From positions 1 to 64,000 of the forward strand of contig CAJNOJ010000377.1 of NCBI GenBank assembly GCA_905250025.1: a stretch of 64,000 nucleotides of DNA, in the 5' to 3' direction. Made by a program: the position numbers and the translations under genes. Below are positions 16,295-58,607 of this stretch, piece by piece (position 1 is the stretch's first letter; every line of letters begins with the position of its first letter). A model generated the notes under the pieces. That model searched no databases. It was not told the origin of the DNA and worked only from the letters and a program-made list of their open reading frames with translations. Source of the stretch: Adineta ricciae (lineage: Eukaryota > Rotifera > Eurotatoria > Adinetida > Adinetidae).

Positions 16295-17067
16295 TTGTTT
16301 TGTGATCTAGCGAGTATTATTTAGAAATTCATCTAGAAATATATTAAAATAACAAGCAACATATGTTTCGATCGTCGAACTGTATTCCAGTAATAACTTG
16401 TTTGTTTATTCGTCTGAAGGTCTTTTCGCTGTTCTATGTGATAATGGAATTAGAGAGAAATACGAGAAGACATTGAGCAGAACAAGAAAAAAAAATACAT
16501 ATTACTAGAGATATTTATAGCATGAGAGAAATTCACTGCTGCGACAGATTTTTGTCCTTTTCTCTCGATGAGATCTTATGACTAAAAAAAAAGTATTTCG
16601 ATTGTTGATCAATTAGTTGTGTGTGTTTATGCAACAGAGAAAAAAAAGATTCTTGAACAACAATAGCAGTCAATGCGTGTCTCTATAAAGATTATTTTTT
16701 CCGTAAAAACTAGAAAATAATTTGCGAATACGAGGAGAACAACTAATTCCATTGTAAGTTATTCGTTGTCAACTCGTAGTATTACAACTTAAATACATGG
16801 AAACATGATTTTCCATTTATGAATTCTTCAAATAGCTTTTGACATTTCCATCGAAGAAAAGATGGCGCTAGGTGATGGTATGAGCGCATTCACGTTCGAA
16901 ACAAAGGAAGAACGTCGTCTTGTTTGCAAAAGATAAAACATGTTTTCGCCGATGAGTTATCAGCAGTATAAAACTTCCAACCATACGTATATTTTTACCG
17001 TCATTGTAAAAAAAGTATTATTTGACTTTGTTTCGAAGAGAAAAAAGACGTACGAAGATAACACTCG
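16295..17067. other. Intergenic / putative promoter of the PARG-PBZ gene
   Basis: No coding sequence seen. A TATA-like TATAAAA lies at about 16,967-16,973, roughly 100 nt upstream of the next ATG, and could be the core promoter of the PARG-PBZ gene. The stretch around 16,480-16,700 is rich in A runs. Confidence 0.4.
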
Positions 17068-20000
17068 ATGCAGTCAACAATTTTTTCTGCCCAAACTCCA
17101 ATAGTTTATATTCCGGATTTGCCAACTCGCTTCTCAGAAGATGAATTAAAAGAAGTAATCAAGAGACGGTTACATATCACTGCAAATATTGGAGTCGTTG
17201 AGGTGATCTGTTATCCAAAACTGGGCATAGGAATGATACAAACGGAGAATAGCCAAGACAAAGAAAAGTTGATCACCGGCATACAATCGTTAGCTCTCGG
17301 CAAAAACTACAACATAAGTATAACGTTTGTCGATAAACTCGAACTCGATTCTTACGTAGTATTTGATGAAAATATCTCGAGTATTCCAAACGCTGATGAA
17401 GCGGCCCACCAATTCAAAAAATCCTATAAGACACAAGTAACTCCTGAATGCAAGCCAATCGCCGCACCATTTCCAAATATATTTCACATTGTTTTGGAAA
17501 CACCCGACGAGTTAGTTAAAGTTGCAAACTCACCAGAATTTACCACCCAAGATGGTATTTCGGCCGTAGTCTATCCCAATGCGGAATATTGTTTTTTCGA
17601 AGATTTACCACCGAATGTCAATAGCGACAAACTTGCATCGGCCGTGGCCTCTCAAGCTGGAGTCAATGTCCTCCCACCCACGTCGTTCCATGTCCAATAT
17701 TGCCAATCAAGCAACTCATCTGTTGTTATAGCAGTCAAATCTGAAAGTAAATGGATAGCAGATAACTATTTAAACATTAACGGACAAAATCTGCCGAAAA
17801 AGAAAGATTTTACCTATCGTGTTCTTGTCTCACCCGTTCCGCGTGATATAGATATCAATCTAATTTTAAATCACAGAATGTTCACAAATCACGTTGTTCG
17901 TCATCAGCACATTAACGATCATCTTGTCATTGAACTTGACAATATCGATGTCTATAAAGAATGCATAGACAATGCCGCCATTGGTATTGGTGGTAAACCT
18001 ATGAGCATTACACCGTATACTTCGACGAGCGTTTCAAATTCGAATGAACTTGATGCGACGAATTGGTACGAGACAGTCATGGTCAATATGAAACCGGATA
18101 TTATGTTATATGTCTTTGATTATAAGCATGCCATATTTGATCTACCATGGAATGAAGAAAGTTGGTTAGAGCAAATGGGGAAGATTGAAGGAAAAGAAAG
18201 ACGCTCAAAAACTTACGATCATCAACGGCATTTATTACGCGTGACAGTAATGTTGAATACGATCGGTGTGGTTCGGAAGAGAAAATACGTTGTGGGTGGT
18301 GAAGAAATTTCATTGAAATCAGAGCGTTTACAAACAATCAGGTATGATTGTAAATCAAAGATAGCGCATGGAAGGCAGATTCTTGAATCGGAGTTTAAGA
18401 CACCGTATTCATCGACCACTGTTCGAGTCGTTAATGAAGATTGCCTTGTTCTTTACCAAAGACTAGCATCAGAAGGATGTCGTCCACTACTATTGAACAT
18501 GGCCAACGCGAAAACTCCCGGTGGTGGTTATCGCAAAGGTGATGGAGCACAGGAAGAGAATATTTTCCGTCGTTCCGATTACTATCAGAGTCTTGATCTT
18601 GAGGTTGCTGACAGAGAACGATATGAACGACTTTATCAATCATCGAAAGGCGACATCAAACGTGCAAAAGATCAAGATGTTCTCTATCCCATGAAAGAAT
18701 TTGAAGCAATTTATACATCGGGTATAACCGTGTTTCGTGGAACCGAAGAGAGCGGATATGCTTTTCTGAAGAAACCTCTATATGATGTTTGTGCTATTGC
18801 TATGGCTGCATATCGTGATCCACCGCTAACCGATAAAAATATGTTACAAGACAGATCCGCTATCAATACATTGAAGAAGATTGAAAACGTTTTTACTATT
18901 GCTCATCAACATAAGCATGATTGTTTAGTACTTTCAGCGCTTGGCTGTGGTGCGTTTAGAAATCCGCCGGAGCATGTCGCTTTACTTTTCAAATCAATGA
19001 TTCGTCAATATGCTGGATATTTCAAAACGATCTACTTTGCCATCCTTGACGACCATAATACAGGAAATAGTCTAAATCCTCATGGTAACCTGCTACCATT
19101 TGAAGAAGTCTTTAACAAGTTTAATATTGTATATCCGCCGAAATCATTGCGTGTGAATTCAGCCAGTGGACCATACCGAATTCTAAACAAATCCTCAGAT
19201 GGAAAAGTAACTTTAAGTGACGTATGTATTTTACATCTGCCACCATGTGAAAATGGATCGAAGTGCGCTGAATTCAATGATGCTGGTCATAAGGCCAAGT
19301 TCTCTCACCCGCCAGTGTGTCCACTACTCGAAGAAGGAACAACATGCACGGAGAATAACGACGAAGTACATATGTTCACTTTTCTGCACAATTCCAAGTG
19401 CAAATATGGTGGACAATGTACTAATACAGATGCAAAGCATCTGAGTGATTATGAACATCCAGACTATTGTCCAAATCATTTGCATTGTCATGAGAAGTCA
19501 TCTGAACATTTTATTGCTTATCGACATCTACCCGTCTGCAGAGACGGGGAGACTTGTCTCAAATACCTGAACAGCGACGCCGAACATTGCAAAAGTTATC
19601 GCCATTGCAAATTAATTTGCTCCGATGATAACACTTGTGTTCGCTTCCATGATCAACAACATATGGAAAATACTATTCATACATTTCGACCACCATGTCC
19701 ATTTACACCATATCATTGTTCTCGTATGGTCAAATATGTACAACATGCTGATGGGCAGCCTGTGAGTGAAGACGTTCAAAGACATTGTCTTACATTCAGT
19801 CATGTATGTCCGTATGGTTCTCGATGTACAGCGAATGATAAAAAGCATTATTTAACATTTATTCACATTGCAAGACATATCTGTGCAGGTGGAGAACTAT
19901 GTATGAAAATGAAGCATGAACATCATCTGGAATCATATTCTCATCCTGGTGTAAAAGACATCCGTTTGCTTTGTAAAAATGCAGGTTATGAATGTCGTGA

Positions 20001-22677
20001 TCGTTTAAAAAATGACCATTTGAAGAAATATCGACATGGACAAAATCATAATCATCTTCGTGTAGCTCCATGCAGTAACTTCAATTCATCAATCAATTTT
20101 CCTCGTAATCAAGGCGAGATGATTCGAGCCGTCAACACTTATATTCAAAAAGCAGGATGGAAAGAAACAAATATTTCGCCGGAAATAATCAATTGGATAC
20201 GAGCACTGCAACCTGTACATCGATGCAATAAATTTATCTTCGAATCAATTCTTGTTCATGGACATGTTATGAGTCGTCATTATATGGAACTGTTAAAAAG
20301 GCCACATTATGTAGTTCAGGCTGTTTTACAACATAGTCGTATTCGGCGAATTTTTCTCGAACACAATACTCCTGAAGTGAAGCATAATGTATCTGAATTA
20401 GTTAAAATCTTAGTTCATGCTGAATTTGGTAAAACAGGAGCAGACGGCATGTCGCCTGCTGAACCAGATCATGATTCTAAAGTGCTCAAATTCGAAAAAA
20501 AATTGAAGCCACCACTCACTGATCATGATATTCAGGCTATACATGATTGGACGATAAAAATTGCTCAAGCATCAATTAAATTAACTTCCAGTCCAATGGG
20601 AATTGGATTTGATGTTGATAAAAAGTTAGGAACTGATCATCACATATTCAGCATTTTAGGACCACATCATGGATTTTATTATGGTGATATTGTCATTACA
20701 TTTAAACAAGAAATTATGTTTCATCCAGATTCAAACTTTACTGTTCAAGCTGGAACAAGTTTTCCTAGTGGAAGAATCTACCAGCAACGTCCATGGAAAG
20801 CTGATCCAGGCGGTGACGACAAACGTATTAAAGATTTTCATCATGGAAAATTACATTGTTCTGTTCCACGTTATGAACATGCGGCAGCCGCTGAACTTGT
20901 TGCTGTAACTGGTCTAAAGAAACAATCAATGGGCATCAGTCTCGATGCTGTTATTCACAATTGGAAAACTTTAGACTCGCATTTTGTTTTCGAAAGTCAT
21001 CTGCCACAATTGATTCCTCTTGATTATATTGATAATGTGTATATGCCAAAGACTTTATTTGATACATTAAGTTCTGAAGCTCGAAATTCAGCTCGTGCAG
21101 TTTTTGGTCAATCATTAATCTTAAGTGACCACGCAATTGACCTTAGTATAACTAAATCAACTAGTATGACGGAACCTGATGATAGTCGTAAACCATATTT
21201 AAATTATATATTGGACAAAAATATCGAAAAAATCAAAGACAGAATTGCAGAACCACAAATCTCTCGTGGCATTGTCATTACAGTTCCGGGAACGAAATTT
21301 GAAGAACTAATTGGTATACCAATCACTATTTCTCAATCGTACTATTTATATCGTCTTGATAAATCCGGTAAATCCGAACATCCTGAGATGACTTATATCT
21401 ATTGGCAAGCGATGAATGGCGATATGATGTTAACCATAAGTAATGAAAGAATTAATTCTGATGGAAAAGATCAACCTAGTTTATATTGTTTGATTTGTTA
21501 TGTTGCTGGGAAACCATCTTCAACACGAGATGATTATCATGAAGAATATTCATATTTAAATATTGGTCATCCATATCAACATTATAATAATGTTCATATG
21601 AGTAAATTCAAAGCGAAATCCAATGTATTCTATCGTGGTTGTAATACTGATGATTTTTTAACTTTTTGCTTAAAACTAAATCATAAGACAGGTGATGTAA
21701 CTTTATCACATGTAGGTCCTAATGGAATTTATAATCATACAAAGATCAGTTATCAATTTGATAAACATGAATTAGATCTAACGAAAATTAATTATATTCA
21801 TGTTAGTGGCGGTCACCAAGATGTACCGATTCGTAATTTGACAATAAATCATGAACCTGTAGCAGAATTAGAAAAATTGTGTGACCTAACGTTCAAAATT
21901 GATACTTCGGAATTATTGAAAGCTCAAGTAGCATCGCCGAGTTACATGCCATACGGCCATTATGCTGCTGATGGTGGCAGCATTGAACCTAAGAAAAACG
22001 CCCGTAATCAACGAAGAGAAAAGCCACCGTCATCCGCATCACATGAATCAAAATCATCACCCAAAGAAAAGCTGTCCTTGTTCGCAAAGCTAAAACATGC
22101 AATCTTTGGCTCGTCGAAAAAACCCGAAACAGCGTCGTCACAAAGAGCATCATCAAAACTACGTCCTTGTGCAGACTCAGTTTATTGTCTAAAGCAAAAT
22201 GCTAAAGATCACATCTCTGAATTCAGTCATCCATGTCGCTTTAATGAATTATGTCGAAATCCAGAGAACGAACCTCATTTGACACATGCGCATCATAAAG
22301 CTTCTCTTTGTTCGGACGATAAAGATTGTAGTAGAAAAACAGATCCTGTACACCGTGCCAAGTATCGTCATACAAATTTACCTGATTATCTCTATCCATG
22401 TCGATATCAAGAATCATGCAGAGAACAGTCGAATGAGCATCGAATGAAATTCTTTCATGGCGAGGAATTGCCTTCAGTCAAAAGTAAAAGAGATTTGTTC
22501 ATAGAGAATCGATAGAAAAGAATTTATGCGTTTTTTTTTTCTTCAGAGAACAAGTCTCGAACAGCTGATGGAACAACAAAATCGAAATTAACACCGTGCA
22601 GATATGGTGCTGATTGTCGAATGATGAAGAAATCAGAACACTGTGCACAATATTCGCACCCTACCAATTCATTTTAA
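17068..22677 (+). CDS. Giant RRM-like / microbial-type PARG / PBZ-finger protein
   Basis: Exon 1 is 17,068-22,483. It should splice (donor GTAAAA, acceptor TTCTTCAG) to 22,547-22,677, giving 1848 residues; unspliced reading stops at 22,515. Residues 1 to about 330 look like repeated RRM-like modules (VVEVICYPKLGIGMI), as in large PARPs. Residues about 340-690 form a microbial-type PARG (DUF2263) domain with the catalytic GGG-x7-QEE signature: G485-G486-G487 and Q495-E496-E497. Ten PBZ-like fingers (C-x5-C-x(6-8)-H-x3-[FY]-x-H, for example CKYGGQCTNTDAKHLSDYEH) occupy about 727-988, and five more about 1701-1848; the last is encoded only by exon 2. The 700 residues between are conserved-looking but unrecognised. 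It should bind poly(ADP-ribose) through the fingers and cleave it. A second copy of the 3' part lies at 57,588-58,607. Confidence 0.85.
22484..22546 (+). other. Short 3' intron of the PARG-PBZ gene
   Basis: 63-nt intron with donor AA|GTAAAAG and a T-rich run before CTTCAG. Splicing it out replaces a 10-residue unspliced tail by 44 residues ending in a PBZ finger (CRYGADCRMMKKSEHCAQYS then H). The same intron and downstream exon exist in the second copy (58,418-58,476; exon to 58,607). Confidence 0.8.
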
Positions 22678-27855: not shown

Positions 27856-28547
27856 TCAGGAATTGTTTTTAACTGGACTCGAACATTTGTTTAACATATG
27901 TCTGCGTTTAGTATCAACAAATTTCAAAAGCGATATCATAGAGAATACCATCTTTGAAGTAACAACACTACTGACCGAGTTTTCAAGAATGTCAGATTTT
28001 CTGACTTTGCAAATACGCATTCAAAAAGGATGTGAATGTTAATCTGTATGAACAAACTGAAATATCTTGATATCTCAATCATCGATCAACAGTGACATCT
28101 CTATATACATTATGAAATTTTTCAAACAAAATACTCCAAGATATAGTTCAATACAACCATAAGAAAATTACAAAGTAGTACATGTCAGAAATTATTTACT
28201 CTAAGCATGTGTCAGTATAGTGGACCGTTTCTTTAGAAACATGTATAGAGAACGTCACTACGGAATGAAGATGATTTCTAAAACTATTCGAAAATCAGAT
28301 GATAGATCTCTGGTTGTGTGAAACTAGCCGATAAGCAGTCGTATTAGAATTATCAAAGAGTTGATAAAGACAAACAAACGAAGAAAGAACACTGACACAT
28401 GAGATCTTCATACACTGGGCGTTGATTGTTTGATTTTGTTTGTATAAGACTTTTTTCTGTTCTCTCTAACTACATACTGTATGACTATACATACCAAACG
28501 ACACATTCTTTGTTAAAAATAATATAAAACATCTGGCGAGTTGAATC
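27856..28547. other. Intergenic / promoter region of the ankyrin-ART gene
   Basis: No coding sequence seen. A TATA-like AATATAAAACATCTGG at about 28,521-28,536 lies just upstream of the ATG and is conserved in the second copy at about 63,350-63,365, as are most of the 690 bases (62,684-63,376). Confidence 0.5.
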
Positions 28548-29606
28548 ATGAGTACCAGTGTACTGTACGAAGCATGTCGAACTGGTGATATTCAAACTGT
28601 AGAACAGCTACTTTCTGAATTATCAGTACATGAAGTCAATCGAGTTCAATTCAATGGCAGTACTTGTCTCCACATTGCATCTAGCTGTAATCATCCTGAA
28701 ATCGTGAAACTTCTACTCGATCATGGTGCTATGCGATCGACTCTTGACAAAGATGGGCATACTGCAGTCGATGTAGCCGCCTCGGAAGAGATTACACAGC
28801 TTTTTCCGCGTGCATCTGCTAATACACAAGCACGCCTTCAGGAAAACATTCCACCTGAGCAAACTTTCGAATGGATCTCCGCTGAAAATGGGCAGTACGG
28901 CTGGTGGTACAAGAGTCGCATAGCGAACGATGACGTATCTCTTGCTGTTATTCGTATCATGGAAGACGCCAGATTTTCAGATGCTACCAATAAAGTTACA
29001 ATGGAATATTTCCTTAATCGAGCACGAAAGACACAAGATCCAAAATGGTTAATACAAGCGTATACAGCTGAGACAGGATTATATCAGATAATCAACAAAG
29101 CATTCGCGCAAACAGTTTCGAATAGAGAACATTTCGATGTGAAAAATGATTTTCGTGCATTTGCAGGTGTTTTAGCTCGTCATGGTGCTCTGAAACCATA
29201 TCGATATGTAGGTAAATGTTATCGTGGCGTGAAATTGTCCATTGAAGATTTTAAAACGAATTACAAAGTTGATCGCAAACTCTTAGTTAAACCATTTATG
29301 TCAACGTCAAAATCACGTGCGATAGCTGAACATTTTGCCACATTTACGCACGATAATATGCGACCTTTACCCGTTTTATTTATCTACACAGTTCCCAAGT
29401 ATACTTTACAATTCGACGATAATGTAGCTCTAGATGTTTCTCCAATGTCGGAATATCCGCATGAAGAAGAAGTTCTTATTTTACCGTATACTTCATTGGT
29501 CATTACTGCTATTAATCATCTTCCATCAGGATTAATTGAAGTCGAATTTGATTGGTATAGTTTCCGGCGTCGTTTCGAGCGTAGAAAGAAAACAGATAAT
29601 GTTTAA
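28548..29606 (+). CDS. Ankyrin-repeat mono-ADP-ribosyltransferase
   Basis: Single exon, 352 residues. Residues 1-90 carry about two ankyrin repeats (NGSTCLHIASSCNHPEIVKL, then DKDGHTAVDVAASEE). A linker with EWISAENGQYGWWYKSR, possibly part of a WWE-like fold, leads to an ART domain of the R-S-E class: R226 in CYRGV, S252-T253-S254 in FMSTSKSR, and the E-x-E at E306-E307-E308 in YPHEEEVLILP. The intact E-x-E suggests arginine-directed transfer of ADP-ribose from NAD+. No signal peptide, so it should act inside the cell, with the ankyrin repeats choosing the partner. It sits downstream of the PARG-PBZ and GH5 genes in the same orientation, and the same order recurs in the second copy (63,377 onward). 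Confidence 0.85.
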   Translation: MSTSVLYEACRTGDIQTVEQLLSELSVHEVNRVQFNGSTCLHIASSCNHPEIVKLLLDHGAMRSTLDKDGHTAVDVAASEEITQLFPRASANTQARLQENIPPEQTFEWISAENGQYGWWYKSRIANDDVSLAVIRIMEDARFSDATNKVTMEYFLNRARKTQDPKWLIQAYTAETGLYQIINKAFAQTVSNREHFDVKNDFRAFAGVLARHGALKPYRYVGKCYRGVKLSIEDFKTNYKVDRKLLVKPFMSTSKSRAIAEHFATFTHDNMRPLPVLFIYTVPKYTLQFDDNVALDVSPMSEYPHEEEVLILPYTSLVITAINHLPSGLIEVEFDWYSFRRRFERRKKTDNV

Positions 29607-31627: not shown

Positions 31628-32261
31628 TCATCTATCCAGTATCATCCCATTGATATCCCAATTGTTAATGTTATCTAATTCAGCTGGTTGAACACCGAGA
31701 GGAGCGTCACCATCGAAGTTATCAGCAGGTGGAGGTGGGGGTGGAGGTGGAGGCTGTGGTAAAGGTGGGGGATTAAGTACCCATCCTGTTAACGAAACTT
31801 CGCTATGGTAGGCAATAAAAATTTCTATCAGCTATCTTACCCATATCCGTGCGACAATTGGGACAGTTTTCACGTTCTCTAAGGTTCCGGCGGTTAGTTA
31901 GCCATGTGAGGAGCTCACCATAATGAAATACTTTATAACACACCCTACAAGTAAGAATTGGTTCATTGGGTTGGACATCATTCAAACAGATTAAACATCT
32001 GAAAATGTATGTGGACTGAAAACTTGTGTGGCTGTGACTAAAATAAAGGAACTTACGTCGGTGGGTCTTGCGGATCAGCATCCTGTGGTAAGAACTCCGG
32101 CGGATGAGGGGGAGGTAGTATGGGTGGCAGCGGTGGTGGCTGAAACAGTGAAAGAAAACAAAATGAGCATTTCACATTGTATTAGCTGTTTCAGACATTG
32201 AATTCTTACATACCTGCGCTTGACCAGGTACTATCATAGGATCGCGAGTTAAATGAGCTAT
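31628..32261 (-). CDS. RING-finger protein with proline-rich flanks (5' end uncertain)
   Basis: Four exons are traceable: 32,214-32,261, 32,057-32,139, 31,841-31,998, 31,628-31,785 (447 nt, in frame). The RING core is CLICLNDVQPNEPILTCRVC, then H, and NCPNCRTDMG, a C3H-type arrangement of eight ligands typical of E3 ubiquitin ligases. Proline runs flank it on both sides (PPPLPPILPPPHPPEF upstream; nine prolines followed by ADNFDGDAP downstream), suggesting SH3/WW/EVH1-type partners. The first visible exon begins IAHLTRDPM; either its internal Met is the start or another short exon lies between 32,262 and 32,420. Confidence 0.68.
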
Positions 32262-32882: not shown

Positions 32883-35278
32883 ATGAATGACACTTGCAAA
32901 GCAGCAATAGCATCTACACAAAACCATACAGACATGTTTAGCCAAGGTGATCTTTTATTTTGGCGATGCGAATATGCACAAGCCAAGCAATATTTCGAAA
33001 CAATTTTAAATCAGTCATCGGCAACTCCTATTGAATTAGCTCGATGCTATCATTCACTCGGTGCAACAAATGCCAAACTAAAGAATTATGCAGAAGCATT
33101 GAAAAATCACGAGAAAGAATTGGAGACATTATTAAAATTGGAAACATCGGATAAGATCGTGACAGATACGGTGAAATGTTACACGTCAATTGGGAAGATC
33201 CATTGTTTGACATCGAATAACGCTGAAGCCATCAATTGGTACAAACAGGCACTTGATCTTATAGCGACTATTACTCTAGATTTTGATCTTATCTCCAATA
33301 TTTATAAAGATTTGGCCAATCTATATACAAGAACACATGACTTTGAACAAGCAATGAGTTATTTCACAAAGGCACTTGACATCGATCGCGAACAACTCAG
33401 AGAGAATCATCCAAAGTTGGGGCAAACATACGCGAATATGGGAGCTATGTATTATCAGCAGCATGATTATAAAAAAGCACTAGAATACTTCTTAAAAGCT
33501 GATGATATATGGCAGAAATCTCTAGCATCAACTCACGCCTATCGTGAATCTATGGGAAAGACGATCTGCCAAGTTGAACGAAAACTAAGTATGTATATAT
33601 TTTAAATACTAAGACTTAGCTGTAAAAGAGTGTAAGTTAAAACTATAGAAGCGCGTATACAGTCAAATCAGCGCATTTCTGCCGTCAAGCAAATAATTTA
33701 TTAATTTTAGGTGAAGTATCTGCTCCACAGTACAAGAACAGATTAAAAGCCATTCGTACGCAATTGGTCTCATTACAAACAAGCATGGAACCGGGGTGGT
33801 CGTTAAAACATTATGATCCTGACGAACTCAGTCCATGGGAACTTATTGTGGAAGGTCCTGCTGGTACACCATATGAAAATGGTCGTTTTCAAGTGATAGT
33901 AAGATTTCCTCTTGATTATCCATTCGAGGTTCAGGAGATATCCTTCATTACCAAAATTCTCCATCCAAACATCGATCCTAATGGACGCATCTGTTTCGAA
34001 GTACTTATGGATGGTGGTTGGAGTCCTACACGGAGTATACGGGTTTTACTACAAAGTATTCAGAAATTACTTGCTAATCCGAATTTTGATGACTTTATCT
34101 ATCCGGAAGCGGCTTTCCTTTTCAAAGAAGATCGTGACAAATTTCAGCAAAAAGCGATCGAGTGGACTAAAACGTTTGCCACTCACGATGTTCCAACGAC
34201 TTCACCGCAATCATCGTCTGCGCTCGAGAAGGTATGAAAGATGTAAATAGATTTTTTAAGAATACATCTTTATATTTTTTTCAAGGCTGAAATAAATGTG
34301 AAACGAACTGAGCAATCACAGCTCAGCGCTGACGGTGCATCAATTTGGCTGTGGAAATTTATATCGCCTGAAAAAGTTCAGTGGCTTTGGTTTTGGAATA
34401 TCGAGATATCGATTCTTGATCATGCGTATTTAAATAAGCAGAAAAGCGTCGAACTAGACAGCTGCATTGTTAATTTGGACGAAGGCTACCGAGTAAACAA
34501 AGAAGATGGAACTAAGACCGAAGTTATTCGTGTTACTGACCCTCAGTACAACGCAGAGATTCGTGAGAAATGGAACGCCAAACAACAATTAGCAGAATAT
34601 GCTACCTTCTACAATGATACATCAAGCGATCAAACGCCCATCCTTGACAAGTGTTTATCATTAGACGTCAACATTTCTGCCGTTGCAAATGGTATTCGTA
34701 ACGAAGGCAGGTTAATTGGAAAGCCGATCGAAGCTAATTATATCGCTGAAGAATTAGAACGTGCTGCCCAAGCTGATCGTTCTTTCGTAGGTTTACAATG
34801 TATTCATCAATATACGCGCAGTTCATTTCTGTATATGAGTCTCAACGAGTTTCTATGTAATAATGACTTAAGTAAACTCGACAATCTTGGACCATATTTA
34901 AAACTACTCTTTTTGCATTTCAAAGAGTATTCTCTCACTGCAGACGCATTAACCGTCTATCGCGGTACTAATCTGTCTTCCACAGAACTGCAAGCTTATC
35001 AGCAAGCAATTGGTACGAATACGTACCGATGGTTTGGTTTTATATCGACGAGTAGAAGCAGAAAAGTGGCGGAATTTTACGATGCAAACACGTTAATGAT
35101 TATTCAGTTGAAAAAACAGTATCCAAATGATGGACGAGCAGTGGATATCAGAGTTTTATCCCAATTTCCTGAAGAGGAAGAGGTACTACTCCGAGCGGGC
35201 GTACAGTTCTGCGTGGAGAAAGTCGAATTCGACGAACAGAAGAAAAAACATATAATACATATTGAGGCCTATGTTTGA
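32883..35278 (+). CDS. TPR - E2 ubiquitin-conjugating - WWE - ADP-ribosyltransferase fusion
   Basis: Three exons, 32,883-33,588, 33,711-34,231, 34,286-35,278, give 739 residues in one frame with good GT-AG borders. Residues 1-235: about five TPR units (for example YHSLGATNAKLKNYAEALKN). Residues about 250-400: a UBC fold with the HPN motif in ILHPNIDPNGRIC, catalytic Cys C330 and the WSPTRSIRVLLQSIQ helix. Residues about 420-500: a WWE domain (WLWFWNIEISILDHAYL, then EVIRV), a poly/iso-ADP-ribose reader. Residues about 540-739: an ART domain with R635 (VYRGTN), S663-T664-S665 and the acid run E705-E708 (FPEEEEVLL), the R-S-E class. One chain could thus load ubiquitin, recognise ADP-ribose and transfer ADP-ribose. 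I do not know a described protein with this order. No signal peptide, so cytosolic or nuclear. Confidence 0.88.
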
Positions 35279-44859: not shown

Positions 44860-45813
44860 CTAACAACACCCAGTTTCCTTCTTTGGTTTTTTAACAGGAG
44901 GTCTCAGCTGAATTGATCCTCTTCGATTCTGACGGTCAATAGTTGTATTGCTACCATTTTTCTTTAATTGGTCTAACAAAGAACGACTAGCCAGTATACA
45001 TAACACTAATTGATTAAACATTGCTTGTATATTTTTTTCAGTAACCGCCGACGTATGAAATAGAGATATATCGTTTTCCGTCGCAAATTGTTCGGCGTCT
45101 TTGAATATTTGATCTTCCGGATCTTCAGATAGATCAGTTTTATGACACAGAAGTACCGATTGGCACCCAGTAGAGTGATGTTGTTTGAATTTAGGATACC
45201 ATCCATCTATTACATCTTTCAACGTTTCCGGTTGGCTTACATCACAAACAAATATTGCACCATGACATCTATATTGATCTGTCCAAACGTTAGTGTATCT
45301 CATGTTACCTGGTAGATCGACAACTGTGATGGAAACGGCATACCGTTCTTGGAATAAATCATCCAGATGCAGCGCTATCATATCAGGACCTATAGTAGTG
45401 CTATATTGATCTTTCCGAAACCGAGTTGGAAATTGTAAATATCGGACAATCGTTGTTTTACCTACGCTTCTATCACCCAACATACATATTTTAATCCGCA
45501 ATTGAGGATATTTCTTGTCTTGGAACTCTTCTGGCAATCCTCCAGGCTTAATAACTAATTCACGTGAGAGTAATTCACAATGCTGTGCTTTTTCTTGTTT
45601 TTCGCGAAACTCTTCGATAGCGTTCTTGAGACTAATATTTAGAATAAAACCTTCGTTGATCAGAACTTTACCTGTCATGGGAGATGTATTATTAGTACTT
45701 AACCAACGTTCTATTTGACACTTTTCGTAACTACGACCATCTTCGATTAATATAACAGGCATTTCCATAACGGCAAGCGATATTGGACATAAGAAATCCC
45801 TCGGCGTTTCCAT
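44860..45813 (-). CDS. U-box E3 ligase domain fused to a Rab-like GTPase
   Basis: 317 residues from the ATG at 45,813; the open frame extends upstream only as far as a probable intron acceptor (TTTTTAG near 45,841), so a 5'UTR intron is likely. Residues about 5-72 are a U-box (PRDFLCPISLAVMEMPVIL, CQIERWL, SPMTGKVL), the E2-binding fold of E3 ligases. Residues about 105-275 are a Rab/Ras-type GTPase: P-loop G113-DRSVGKTT, switch I YSTTIGPD, and TSA at 254-256. G3 reads D166-L-P-G169-N170, so the catalytic Gln is Asn, and G4 reads HKTD instead of NKxD. The C-terminus TGCC fits double geranylgeranylation. The protein would be a membrane-anchored E3 whose activity or location may follow the GTPase state. 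I know of no described U-box-Rab protein. Confidence 0.88.
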   Translation of the reverse strand: METPRDFLCPISLAVMEMPVILIEDGRSYEKCQIERWLSTNNTSPMTGKVLINEGFILNISLKNAIEEFREKQEKAQHCELLSRELVIKPGGLPEEFQDKKYPQLRIKICMLGDRSVGKTTIVRYLQFPTRFRKDQYSTTIGPDMIALHLDDLFQERYAVSITVVDLPGNMRYTNVWTDQYRCHGAIFVCDVSQPETLKDVIDGWYPKFKQHHSTGCQSVLLCHKTDLSEDPEDQIFKDAEQFATENDISLFHTSAVTEKNIQAMFNQLVLCILASRSLLDQLKKNGSNTTIDRQNRRGSIQLRPPVKKPKKETGCC

Positions 45814-47253
45814 TTCTTTGCTTCGTTCGTCCGAGCTTCTAAAAATATTATTATCACCCAACAACTTGTGATGTTTTCCAACGTATATTCGTCGTTACCT
45901 TATAGTTGAAGATAAAGACTTCAACACTTCTAATCGTTCTTATCACTAATGTATTATTTGTAGACATACTTTGTCATGCTCGCATTGACTATTTCAAAGT
46001 TCACTTTTACTCTCGAAGAATTTGCCATACAAGAATGGGAATGTATCTACAACGGATTCTGATTAAGTTATAACAAAACCCAAATGCACACATATATAAT
46101 ACTAATGGAATATTTCCCGGAAATAACAATTGTTACCCATAAAAAGGTGAATACTTTGTTGTTGTGTTAAGCAACCGTTACAATCTAACATGTGATCTTG
46201 CGTTACACATCTATTTTTGACAAGTGGACAACAACACCGTTTTTCCTCACTCTCATAACGTCACTCACTGAGATTTGTTTCGGTTGATTCCTATCAAGAA
46301 CCTGTGTCGAGTCCAACTTATGCAAAAAATGTTGGCATACATATACAACGTACTTTTAAGTTGCATTTGTCTGCTAACAAAGCAAATGTGCATATGGTTC
46401 ACACAAGTTTAATCGCACCACTTTTTTTCTGATTGGTAGTTCAGATAGACTTTATCAACAACGTTAAGCGAATACATGTGATCTAGAAGAGATGACTCTA
46501 ACTTTATGATCGGCTTTTGAAATTCGTTCGTATGGGTAAAATGATACTCTACTGCAATATCCACGATAAATATTATGAAAATTGAGATTCGAAGCGAAAA
46601 CGACTGTGATAATGTTTTTCACCGGTGCCTTCTCAACGTATGCAGCGAAACTTCACGAAGTCGATTCAGATGGTAGATCAATGTGCCGACATTTGTGTTC
46701 CGCGAAAATCGTCGATTTCATGTCTGAAATACCTCAAAAGCTTGGGAAAAAGCACCTTTCCTAAGAGCACAAGACAAATATTACCGTCCCGAAAGTCTTT
46801 TATATGTCTGGGAAAGAATGAAAAGGAAAACAACGGTGTGGTTGCTTTACTTAACACCCACATTTATTCTTGATCATCATGCCATGTAAAAACCTTAATA
46901 AATCTATGTTCAAAGGTTCAACAGTACCGCGAAATCAATATCTGTATACTTTTATTTTGGTACATTCAAGGCATACTAATTCAATATTCCCGAATGTCCT
47001 ATATGAACGTATGCTATAAGTATTCAGCATAAAAGAAAGATAAATCAAAATTGTACAGGAGTTGATTTTGAATTATTTAAAATAAAAAATAGTGAACAGT
47101 TGACATTTTGAAAATTTGTTCCAATGTCGTTCTCTTTCTTCACATGATTAAATCAAATGTTTATAAATGATTTATAAATGAAGTGCACGCAATATCATTC
47201 GTTTTACGGAATAAAGATAGAAATAGACAATGATGGTCACAATTCATCAGAGC
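45814..47253. other. Intergenic, no gene seen
   Basis: 1.4 kb AT-rich. Short overlapping frames at 46,582-46,873 on both strands show nothing recognisable. The upstream 5'UTR exon of the U-box-Rab gene probably lies near 45,895. Confidence 0.5.
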
Positions 47254-48721
47254 TCATATGTAAAGAACGAATCCGCCTCGTTTCGCTGCTGTTCGGATTC
47301 GGTCCTGACCTGCGGGCGTCAAACTGCAATGACATAAATGCAATTGATGAAACGCGATATTGGTGGATATAGCAGAGCATATCACATCTACACTGTCGTC
47401 AGTTATCAGGCTGTTGCCGGACAAGGTTAGCATTGTTAAACCACACTGACCCGATCTAATTTTTTCGAGTAATACTCGAACTCCCCGATCGGTAATCTCA
47501 TTGTTGTTTAGAAATAAGTAGATTATGCAATGATTGATTCCGATCGCTTCAGCGAGGTATTCACAACCGGCATCCGACATTCCAACAGAATTCAGATAAA
47601 GAGTACGAAAATAGATGTTCACATCCGATAATCCTTTGGCAACTGACTGAACACCTGCATCCAGTATGCGATTTCCATCGAGAATCAGCGACTTAAAAGT
47701 GGGATTTGCAGGAAATGCTTCCGATAAGATAGATGCACCGACAGAAGTTATTAGATTGTCACGAAGCGATAGAATCATACATCTCTTTTCGATTAGACCT
47801 AATTTGACGACAATCTCCATATCTTGATCATTTAGATTCATCGAGTCTAAAGTCAATTTACCACGAGTTGGGGACGCTTGAATTATTTTTTCTAGCTCCG
47901 GATTACGATATTCATCTGCTACTAGAATGGTGTCTGCCATTATAAATTCATCAGGCAAACCTACCTCACGCAACTGAACTATCTGAATTCCGTCTTCACC
48001 CTTCGACGACCCAATCACTTTCACCGTTACGCCAGGAAGAAGAACTATCTCATCGTCATTCTGAACATGCGAGTGTTCTCGAATCGACTTTCCATACTTC
48101 GTCTCGATCGAAAACACCGTCTGCACTTCTTCTCTTCCCAAATACATCGGAGACTGAAGAGCATCGAACGAAGATGTCATCGAAGTTAACGACCACCATG
48201 TCACTTCATCTCCTTCGCGAAACTCTTCAACAACGTCCTTCGCCACACCGTGCCACAGTGTATTACATTCAGCATACCTACAACTCATTCACTCGAACCT
48301 GACTTTCTTAGAACTAAGCATTCACTTACGGTAGTTTGAAGAGTGCTGTGTAGAATAGTTTGAGATAGTTGAGCCAAGGTTGCAGTTGATTGGGATCGAG
48401 AGAAGAAAGAGCTTGATTGAGAAGAACGTGAAGACTGTGGTGTGGCTCGTTCCATTCCATTGTGTACAAATAGATGGATGCTGATTCATCTTGTGTGAGG
48501 CCTTGTTTGGGCTGTTGGCAATTGAGATTGGCGATCGTCATGTAGAGTTGTAGTTCGGTGCCGAGAATATCGTGGAGTGGTTGACAAGCTTGTTCAAGAG
48601 GTAGGAGTGGATGCTGTTGGTAGTCATAGATAGGATGGAGAGCTTGATGGGATGGTAGAGGAGGAGGAGGAGGAGGAAGATCGGTCAAAAGTCGTGGATT
48701 GATTTCGAAGGAAAAGGACAT
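47254..48721 (-). CDS. ADP-ribosyltransferase-like / leucine-rich-repeat protein, copy A
   Basis: Two exons, 48,330-48,721 and 47,254-48,277, give 471 residues. The N-terminus has a proline run and helical region (1-130), then an ART-like fold: TLWHGVAKD with His140 where the R-S-E class has Arg, WWSLTSMTSSF (S163-M-T165 for the S-T-S), and NDDEIVLLPG with D205-D206-E207 in place of E-x-E. The LRR part (about 255-465) has NLRC3/RNI-type repeats (LSLRDNLITSVGASILSEAF; LYLNSVGMSDAGCEYLAEAI). The fold is that of an arginine ART, but the replaced Arg and first Glu make activity uncertain. It is paired with copy B 2 kb upstream in the same orientation: the ART parts are almost identical and the LRR parts are not. 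Confidence 0.85.
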
Positions 48722-50619: not shown

Positions 50620-52078
50620 TTACACATAAATGGTAAAACCACGACGTTGTTGAGCTGCAAGCTGAAGTTTCTCTTTGCCCGCACTGGAAAAGCTACAGTT
50701 ACGCACATGCATTTGCTGGAAATAATGGCGTGCGAACATCGAAGAGCAGATGATGTCAACACTTGCATCAGTTATTCGTTTGTTGCCAGACAAAGTCAGA
50801 AGTGAGGTATTGCAGTCAGGAGACATTATTGTTTCAAGCAATATGCGAACTCCTCGATCGCTAATATCATTGTCGTTTAAAGTTAGATACATGTTATAGG
50901 GATTTCTTTGTAGCATTTCGGCCAGGTATTCGCAACCAGCGTCGGACATTCCTACCGAATTCAAGTGAAGCATTTTCATAGCACCTCTATCAGTTCCCAA
51001 TCCTTTAGCAAGCGACTGAACGCCTGCATCCAGTATGCGATTTTCATCTAATTTTAAACAGAAAAAATAACGTCCAGGAAGTGCCTGAGCCAAGATAGAT
51101 GCACCCACAGATGTTATCCTATTGTTGCGAAGATCGATTGCCCCACAATTCTTTTCAACTAGAGCTAATTTGACGACAATCTCCATATCTTGATCATTTA
51201 GATTCATCGATTCTAAAAGTAAATGTTCGTGCTCTCCTAACGATCGAATGATTCTTTCAAGGTTTGGATTATGGTATTCTTCTATTGGTGAACAAGAGTT
51301 CACTAAGTTACCTCCATCTAGGTCAACCTCACGCAACTGAACTATCTGAATTCCGTCTTCACCCTTCGACGACCCAATCACTTTCACCGTTACGCCAGAA
51401 AGAAGAACTATCTCATCGTCATTCTGAACATGCGAGTGCTCTCGAATCGACTTTCCATACTTCGTCTCGATCGAAAACACCGTCTGCACTTCTTCTCTTC
51501 CTAAATACATCGGAGACTGAAGAGCATCAAACGAAGATGTCATCGAAGTCAACGACCACCATGTCACTTCATCTCCTTCGCGAAACTCTTCAGCAACGTC
51601 CTTCGCCACACCATGCCACAGTGTATCACACTCAGCATACCTACAACTCATTCACTCCAACCTGACTTTCTCAGAACTAAGCATTCACTTACGGTAGTTT
51701 GAAGAGTGCTGTGTAGAATAGTTTGAGATAGTTGAGCCAAGGTTGCAGTTGATTGGGATCGAGAGAAGAAAGAGCTTGATTGAGAAGAACGTGAAGACTG
51801 TGGTGTGGCTCATTCCATTCCATTGTGTACAAATAGATGGATGCTGATTCATCTTGTGTGAGGCCTTGTTTGGGCTGTTGGCAGTTGAGTTTGGCGATCG
51901 TCATGTAGAGTTGTAGTTCGTTGCCGAGAATATCGTGGAGGGGTTGACAAGCTTGTTCAAGAGGTAGGAGTGGATGCTGTTGGTAGTCATAGACTGAGCG
52001 GAGAGCTTGATGGGATGGTAGAGGAGGAGGAGGAAGATCGGTCAAAAGTCGTGGATTGATTTCGAAGGAAAAGGACAT
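50620..52078 (-). CDS. ADP-ribosyltransferase-like / leucine-rich-repeat protein, copy B
   Basis: Two exons, 51,693-52,078 and 50,620-51,640, 468 residues. The same architecture as copy A: helical N-terminus with a shorter proline run, TLWHGVAKD with His at the Arg position, TSMTSSF, NDDEIVLLSG, then LRRs (IDLRNNRITSVGASILAQAL; LHLNSVGMSDAGCEYLAEML). Up to QIVQLREV (end of the ART domain) only a handful of residues differ from copy A; after it the linker is unrelated and the LRRs keep the framework but differ at many surface positions. Both copies keep the same intron and junction (FKLP|YAEC). Unlike the intact ARTs elsewhere in the window, it lacks the canonical Arg and E-x-E. Confidence 0.85.
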
Positions 52079-56994: not shown

Positions 56995-57586
56995 TTAACA
57001 AGTAGGATAGAAACAAGGCCGAGTGCTATTGATTGAAGTTGACGGCTCCTCGCACCTATCGCAAGAAACACCAGTTGTGTCAATACAGTTACGCTGCCGT
57101 CTATATACGCCATTACCACATGTGACGCTGCACGGACCACTGACCCATTGTGACCATGCACAAGCTAAACGATAGATTGCTGTCGATAATACATAACAAT
57201 TTATAAAAAAAGGTAATTTTTTACATAATTTCTATTCATCTATGAGTATAGCCTTGACTCAAAGAGAATCTGTTTAGTTAAGATTCGACATGTACATCTA
57301 ACTCGTGCTCCGTTTTCATCCAGCTGTGAGAATATTTAAGCTGGGATCGTCAATATTGACGAATATTACTTACGTATGGCCGTAGTTGTCGTAGTAGTGG
57401 TGGTAGTTGTTGTTGTAGCTAAATAAAAAAATAACCAATAGAGTGTTGAACACCGGCCTTCTAGTCGGTAGAAACGGTGAAATTCTACGTACTTGATGTA
57501 GAACTCGTTGTGCTTGTTGAGGTAGTTGAACTAGTGGAGCTAGTGGAACTGGTAGAACTAGTGGAGCTAGTCGAGCTGGTAGAGCT
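56995..57586 (-). CDS. 3' end of mucin-like, thrombospondin type-1 repeat protein (cut at N 57,587)
   Basis: Three minus-strand exons are visible: 57,493-57,586 (Ser/Thr repeats, SSTSSTSST...), 57,374-57,418 (TTTTTTTTT linker) and 56,995-57,179. The last encodes a TSP1 module: CAWSQWVSGPCSVTCGNGVY, then RRQRNC and further Cys, ending FYPTC and a stop. WSxW, CSxTCG and RxR are the diagnostic positions. The acceptor of the last exon is ambiguous (57,179 or 57,161; both in frame). The 5' part is lost at the N. Presumably a secreted or surface glycoprotein. Confidence 0.75.
57493..57586 (-). repeat. Low-complexity Ser/Thr codon repeat
   Basis: Short degenerate tandem repeat (units close to AGCTCCACT/AGTTCTACC on the minus strand) encoding the Ser/Thr linker of the TSP1 gene. 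It ends exactly at the N at 57,587; such a repeat is a natural place for an assembly break. Confidence 0.7.
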
Positions 57587-57587
57587 N
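57587..57587. other. Single N: assembly junction
   Basis: The only ambiguous base in the area. To its left is the TSP1 gene, to its right (ttttttactttttgc) sequence matching copy 1 from about 21,655. Real gap length unknown. Confidence 0.9.
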
Positions 57588-58607
57588 TTTTTTACTTTTT
57601 GCTTAAAACTAAATCATAAGACAGGTGATGTAACTTTATCACATGTAGGTCCTAATGGAATTTATAATCATACAAAGATCAGTTATCAATTTGATAAACA
57701 TGAATTAGATCTAACGAAAATTAATTATATTCATGTTAGTGGCGGTCATCAAGATGTACCGATTCGTAATTTAACAATAAATCATGAACCTGTAGCAGGA
57801 TTAGAAAACTTGTGTGACCTAACGTTCAAAATTGATACTTCTGAATTATTCAAAGCTCAAGTAGCATCGCCGAGTTATATGCCATACGGTCATTATGCTG
57901 CTGATGGTGGCAACACTGAGCCTAAGAAAAACGCTCGTGATCAACGAAGAGAAAAACCATCGTCCTCAGCACCACATGAATCAAAATCAGCACCCAAAGA
58001 AAAACTGTCCTTGTTCACAAAACTAAAACATGCCATCTTTGGCTCGTCGAAAAAATCCGAAACAGCGTCGTCACAAAGCGCATCATCAAAACTACGTCCT
58101 TGTGCAGACTCAGTTTATTGTCTAAAGCAAAATGCTAGAGATCACATCTCTGAATACAGTCATCCATGTCGCTTTAATGAATTATGTCGAAATCCAGAGA
58201 ACGAACCTCATTTGACACATGCACATCATAAAGCTTCTCTTTGTTCAGACGATAAAGATTGTACTAGAAGAACAGATCCTATACACCGAGCTAAGTATCG
58301 TCATACAAATTTACCTGATTATCTCTATCCATGTCGATATCAAGAATCATGCAGAGAACAGTCAGATGAGCATCGAATAAAATTCTTTCATGGCGAGGAA
58401 TTGCCTTCAGTCAAAAGTAAAAGAGATTTGTTCATAGAGAATCGATAGAAAAGAATTTATGTTTTTTTTTCTTTAGAGAACAAGTCTCGAACAGCTGATA
58501 GAACAGCAAAATCGAAATTAACACCATGCAGATATGGTGCTGATTGTCGAATGATGAAGAAATCAGAACACTGTGCACAATATTCGCACCCTACTAATTC
58601 ATTTTAA
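57588..58607 (+). CDS. Second copy of PARG-PBZ gene, 3' part only
   Basis: Matches 21,655-22,677 with a few percent base differences. The frame runs to 58,417, splices to 58,477-58,607, and ends in the same final PBZ finger. The fingers at the C-terminus are all kept. The N-terminal RRM-like, PARG and first finger array are missing because the sequence starts at the N. Substitutions are frequent in the Ser/Lys-rich linker (for example S/A, K/S changes) and rarer in the fingers. Confidence 0.85.

Follow-up and report, generated by a model that had tools for sequence, protein, structure and literature searches.

In the sources available to us, ADP-ribosylation and ubiquitylation are connected for the most part by way of E3 ligases. 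In a gene of the bdelloid rotifer Adineta ricciae, an animal with a large ADP-ribosyltransferase (ART) family (at least 150 and at least 149 matches to two profiles, from scoring 150 among 553 candidates and 150 among 359), an E2 is itself tied to an arginine-type ADP-ribosyltransferase. The gene lies in a stretch of 64,000 nucleotides of contig C377, which we call the window. A sequence-only reading had taken it for a single three-exon frame in which an E2 is coupled directly to a WWE reader of ADP-ribose chains and an R-S-E transferase.

The gene and its predicted protein

The TPR-E2-WWE-ART chain of the window is one gene encoding one predicted protein. Splicing 32883-33588 to 33711-34231 and 34286-35278 gives an open frame of 739 amino acids with GT-AG at both introns, which bears out the three-exon single frame, and the residues that the reading had singled out (HPN, C330, R635, STS 663-665 and the acidic run 705-708) all lie in the translation where it had placed them. 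The features are as follows.

32883..33588, forward: exon 1, from the start codon through the TPR region (residues 1-235); its last base opens codon 236, and the donor GT is at 33589
33589..33710, forward: intron 1, 122 nt, GT-AG
33711..34231, forward: exon 2, E2 (UBC) domain; UQ_con 118-122 bits, UbcH5 fold
33755..34165, forward: UBC core, residues 251-387 (Pfam UQ_con)
33962..33970, forward: HPN motif, residues 320-322
33992..33994, forward: predicted catalytic cysteine C330, which lines up with the Cys that Ubc4 chains conserve
34232..34285, forward: intron 2, 54 nt, phase 0, separating the E2 from the WWE
34286..35278, forward: exon 3, WWE and ADP-ribosyltransferase; aligns with single-frame bdelloid WWE-ART genes over most of its length
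34346..34531, forward: WWE domain, residues 430-491, with pocket substitutions C469, R478 and E488
34796..35272, forward: ART catalytic domain; ADPrib_exo_Tox and ART above cut-off
34961..34963, forward: R635 of the R-S-E triad; invariant in 16/16 sequences and in at least 90% of 40
35045..35053, forward: STS 663-665, triad serine S663; S663 invariant in 16/16 and in at least 90% of 40
35171..35182, forward: EEEE 705-708, E-x-E pair E706 and E708; both invariant in 16/16 and in at least 90% of 40

A second copy of the gene is present further along the contig (C377:67730-70124, 91% identical), and the same three-exon splice of this copy is the annotated protein P0001, letter for letter. This bears on whether separate neighbouring genes might have been misread as one. 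Without removal of intron 2 the frame does meet a stop shortly past exon 2, but the annotated structure of the twin is identical, the same phase-0 intron scores best in relatives on contig C114 that are 34-40% identical, and the E2-WWE junction is crossed by predicted proteins of two other species. On these grounds we rejected separate genes, which we consider extremely unlikely. Within the 64-kb window, Rfam at gathering thresholds gave no match.

Chance adjacency of E2 and ART genes was also rejected, given that close pairs on the same strand occur twice on C377, twice on C114 and once on C281 when the lists of matches are compared by eye. At C367 and C218, E2 and ART matches are likewise separated by a few kb, and they lie on different strands. 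The contig searches covered a genome of 130.5 Mb in 1033 contigs; the E2 list used for this comparison held the best 150 of 154 candidates scored, and the ART lists came from scoring part of the candidates.

Catalytic domains and divergence of the E2

Exon 1 is matched by Pfam TPR_12 (E 1.1e-26), and the transferase by both ADPrib_exo_Tox (E 5.6e-11, 42.6 bits, cut-off 23.4) and ART (E 3.9e-10, 39.9 bits, cut-off 22.3). UQ_con recognises the UBC domain with E 2.6e-34 (118 bits, cut-off 27), and the HPN motif and catalytic Cys are retained in 6/6 E2-linked sequences that cover the sites. Structure prediction, which the sequence-only reading had proposed as a check, was in agreement for the most part. 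Searches with Foldseek found a KLC/LGN-like TPR fold and an ART fold in the full-length AlphaFold2 model of P0001, but this model is poor over the UBC domain, with pLDDT below 50 at residues 240-278, 283-295 and 303-341. Since the alignment behind it contained only three E2-bearing rows, exon 2 was modelled separately, and this model gave the E2 fold with UbcH5 chains matched at a TM-score by target of about 0.84. VIA-align, run with the full-length P0001 model only, covered little outside residues 7-248, and a viral fold search added nothing useful.

The transferase belongs to the R-S-E (ARTC) type. An E-x-E pair is a mark of arginine specificity in ADP-ribosyltransferases. When exon 3 was scanned alone up to E=1, the only families reported were ADPrib_exo_Tox, ART, WWE and DUF6324, with no PARP family among them, and the window protein lacks the ARTD/PARP catalytic domain that defines the PARP6/8 type. 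The direct coupling of an E2 to an R-S-E transferase stands, with catalytic residues conserved in both. It is less clear that the protein is the 'self-contained' device that had been proposed. An E2 of the Ubc4/UbcH5 kind requires an E1 and usually an E3 too, so this description is doubtful. Mammalian ARTC enzymes, where active, attach mono-ADP-ribose to arginine according to the text available to us (PMC9404506), which also weighs against it.

Comparison of the two C377 copies reports on the constraint acting on each part. Overall dN/dS is 0.36, with values of 0.22 for the TPR region, 0.15 for the WWE and 0.19 for the ART, against 0.73 for exon 2 and 0.60 for the UBC core; the linker at 388-428 gives 2.1 on 7 changes. 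Exon 2 is 92.5% identical between the copies, which is below both intron 1 (96.7% over 122 gap-free aligned columns) and intron 2 (96.2%; 53 nt in the second copy vs 54). Around the E2 active site, residues 298-350 hold 15 of the 58 amino-acid differences, a clustering with a binomial P of 1e-5 for a region that was picked after inspection of the data. The excess of change has p=0.025 for exon 2 vs the rest, yet p=0.13 for the UBC core vs exons 1 and 3. Possible causes of this divergence are positive selection, a relaxation of selection, and gene conversion elsewhere.

Another reading of these data is an E2 that is dead or in decay and acts as a scaffold, which would make the protein, in practice, an arginine ADP-ribosyltransferase docked by its TPRs. 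The raised dN/dS and the low identity of exon 2 would fit with this, as would the loss of the flap prolines in the window copy (V309-Q310 in place of the twin's A-P and of the PP seen in most of 16 aligned E2s) and the erosion of a DD pair near the active site in the C114 relatives, of which C114a keeps 0 and C114b keeps 1. Set against this are the HPN motif and catalytic Cys in all six sequences, the intact frame, a UBC dN/dS that remains below 1 and the more canonical E2 of the twin. We consider a dead E2 unlikely, though it deserves to be kept in mind.

How much weight the twin can bear depends on what it is. Some 30 kb of the contig recur as a direct repeat (window 21655-51650 vs C377 57588-87923), in pieces that are mostly 90-96% identical, and this is either a tandem duplication or the joining of haplotypes. 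If the two copies were alleles or haplotypes placed end to end by the assembler, then the twin would provide little independent evidence. The direct repeat, at about 93%, does reach the contig end and we take this reading seriously, at somewhat short of an even chance, but the conclusion that the domains are fused rests also on the genes from C114, Rotaria and A. steineri.

The WWE domain and its pocket

The WWE domain scores 15.3 bits in the whole protein and 15.9 bits in exon 3 alone, below the Pfam cut-off of 21.1, so other evidence was required. Exon 3 can be aligned with WWE-ART frames of bdelloids, and in several of these the WWE passes the Pfam cut-off; a profile built from ten WWE regions (three of them E2-linked) found Deltex, TRIP12, RNF146 and HUWE1 chains as its first matches. 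As judged by this homology the WWE is genuine, although it falls under the Pfam cut-off. Retention of W430, W442 and R491 suggests that the fold is probably kept; W432 is retained too.

Whether it can read ADP-ribose chains is a separate matter. In RNF146, Q153, Y107, R163 and Y144 touch the AMP half of iso-ADP-ribose (PMC8853533), and the same four residues are deemed crucial in a review (PMC11088682), as far as the available text of each goes. The window protein retains a Trp (W432) at position 107, but has C469 at Tyr144, R478 at Gln153 and E488 at Arg163, so it lacks the RNF146-type pocket (Tyr or Trp at 107, Y144, Q153 and R163); two other alignment modes agree.

This is not peculiar to the window copy. 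Among ten E2-linked or orthologous sequences, W107 is kept in 10/10 and Cys stands at 144 in 10/10, with Q153 in 2/10 and R163 in 0/10. Among 100 WWE-ARTs without a detected E2, by comparison, W/Y107 is found in 98, Y144 in 97, Q153 in 97 and R163 in 92. The counts are the same in three alignment modes and change little when near-copies are merged (94 and 9 rows). Of these positions, 163 is the least secure, as C114 has an Arg one position past this column and the surrounding rows contain gaps. The 110 rows comprise the ten E2-linked or orthologous sequences, of which four (P0096, P0099, P0102 and P0112) are metagenome exon-3 frames known from that exon alone, together with 13 WWE-ART frames of the A. 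ricciae genome and 87 proteins (P0009-P0095, proteins after P0095 being left out). Some A. ricciae genes may be present in both of the latter sets, the 100 rows reducing to 94 when those at least 90% alike are merged, and the lack of an E2 was judged from Pfam labels or single frames rather than full gene models. Because the rows came from a homology search, relatives without the pocket may be under-sampled.

Loss of the pocket is a property of the clade on these alignments. Given that all ten E2-linked sequences lack equivalents of Tyr144 and Arg163, and eight of them lack Gln153, we do not accept the window WWE as a PAR reader; this role is not supported, and what stands of the original claim is the domain itself. 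The idea built on it was that the WWE reads ADP-ribose chains and guides the E2 to modified targets, much as RNF146 does with its RING. Homology to the WWEs of Deltex, TRIP12, RNF146 and HUWE1 and the four retained residues speak for such a device, but the positions lost are the very contacts to iso-ADP-ribose described above, and we find it highly doubtful. The clade does offer a natural experiment, with pocket-keeping WWEs in genes without a detected E2 beside E2-linked WWEs without the pocket, and the role of a WWE without its ligand is therefore directly testable.

Origin of the fusion and a possible function

The two C114 relatives have the order E2-WWE-ART and are 34-40% identical to the window protein over the E2 and the WWE-ART. 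In both, the best-scoring splice uses a 55-nt phase-0 intron placed as the 54-nt phase-0 intron of the window is, among other chains that are also open, and no TPR match was found upstream of these genes in stretches of 9.9 kb. In a predicted Rotaria protein (P0002) a WWE-ART follows the last part of an E2 (24.8 bits, cut-off 27), and a predicted A. steineri protein (P0003) joins TPR, E2 and WWE. As annotated, P0003 is without the ART active site and extends into LRRs; this could be either a mistake in the annotation or a genuine exchange. The matches listed included no A. vaga protein. So far the TPR exon has been seen in the genes of C377 and A. steineri alone, so that one branch of the fused genes appears to carry it in addition. 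At C281 (L017 3857-6212) the best-scoring splice chain encodes an E2-ART that has no WWE and whose E2 is followed by a phase-0 intron; because 346 chains are open there, this possible third kind of E2-ART gene is a lead and not proof.

A tree of 36 ART rows unites both C377 and both C114 genes, those of Rotaria and C281, P0127 and four metagenome orthologues in a single clade (support 95/88), with C281 as its deepest branch. Three changes of the E2 label are needed on this tree when only the six named genes carry it, because P0127 and the four metagenome rows, whose upstream parts were not seen, were not labelled as E2-linked. In a tree of 29 E2 rows, the C377, A. steineri and C114 sequences group together (86/76), but since C281 has no settled place, no more than 8% of bootstrap trees unite the six E2-linked rows. 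A single gain of an E2 in front of a bdelloid WWE-ART gene is probably the best account of these data, though it is not proven.

Coupling of an E2 to an ADP-ribosyltransferase has precedent. The accessible parts of two papers describe clade 6 (PARP6/8-type) PARPs with UBCc in Ascomycota, Basidiomycota, Physcomitrella and Chlamydomonas (PMC2964712, PMC4245714). Like the window protein, these have both domains in one chain, with an active Cys in fungal group 6A, but their transferase is a PARP (ARTD) whereas ours is R-S-E (ARTC), the E2 of group 6A is C-terminal whereas ours lies ahead of the transferase, and the same parts mention no TPR or WWE in them. Bdelloid WWE-ARTs resemble exon 3 over most of its length and have the same catalytic residues, but they show no detected E2 or TPR and mostly keep the iso-ADP-ribose pocket. 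RNF146 (RING-WWE) with UbcH5 is a further parallel in which a WWE acts with a Ubc4/UbcH5-like E2, and complex 4qpl was among our matches; RNF146 differs in having an E3 rather than an E2, an intact pocket and no transferase. PARP11-type mono-ADP-ribosyltransferases share the order of WWE then transferase, according to the accessible text (PMC9404506), but have an ARTD catalytic domain and no E2. In the literature searched, which left most subscription journals outside, we found no report of a bdelloid or TPR-E2-WWE-ART protein, nor of an E2 with an R-S-E (ARTC) transferase and a WWE, with or without TPRs, so the precedent extends to the coupling and not, in that literature, to the ARTC, WWE and TPR version.

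The reading we favour, to which we would give about an even chance, is of an intracellular protein whose TPRs hold a partner for modification by the E2 and by an arginine-type mono-ADP-ribosyltransferase, the E2 having been gained in front of a bdelloid WWE-ART. The TPR superhelix would dock this partner, which could be a substrate or an E3. Ubiquitin would be loaded onto C330 of the E2, which would then ubiquitylate the docked complex together with an E3 of the RING or U-box class. Through R635, S663, E706 and E708 the ART would move single ADP-ribose units from NAD+ to nearby arginines on the partner, the protein itself or ubiquitin. The WWE, having lost its pocket residues, would no longer be a PAR reader and may serve as a spacer or bind something else. 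Together, the E2 and ART might both modify the same docked target, the E2 might be regulated by self-modification, or ubiquitin itself might be modified. A more specific form of the last option is that the ART ADP-ribosylates an arginine of its own E2's ubiquitin or of E2~ubiquitin, such that NAD+ gates transfer in cis and the WWE is repurposed; we regard this as quite unlikely. Deltex E3s make a hybrid ubiquitin-ADP-ribose mark in the text available to us (PMC12407064), so chemistry joining the two exists, but there it is the work of an E3 whereas the window protein has an E2.

The gene is surrounded, within 17062-51651 of the window, by other ADP-ribosylation and ubiquitin genes.

17062-22515: frame of 1817 amino acids with a microbial-type PARG domain
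28545-29606: Ank-ART
31803-32171, reverse: RING-like frame (26.7 bits vs 27.3)
44860-45894, reverse: U-box and Ras-like GTPase
47254-48288, reverse: ART frame with LRR
50620-51651, reverse: ART frame (ART 22.1, slightly below the 22.3 cut-off)

The repeated block of about 30 kb starts inside the PARG-like frame, and in its second copy the frame at 57465-58448 carries a PBZ motif (PAR-binding zinc finger). Elsewhere, L012 (4018-6957, reverse; 979 amino acids) and L013 (2033-5368; 1111 amino acids) are single frames with an E2 near the C-terminus and, by eye, a von Willebrand A-like stretch, L012 also having a ubiquitin-like N-terminus. Near a C114 copy, L011 (633-2102, reverse) appears by eye to have an ART-like part followed by TPRs, with the TPR similarity found by tblastn.
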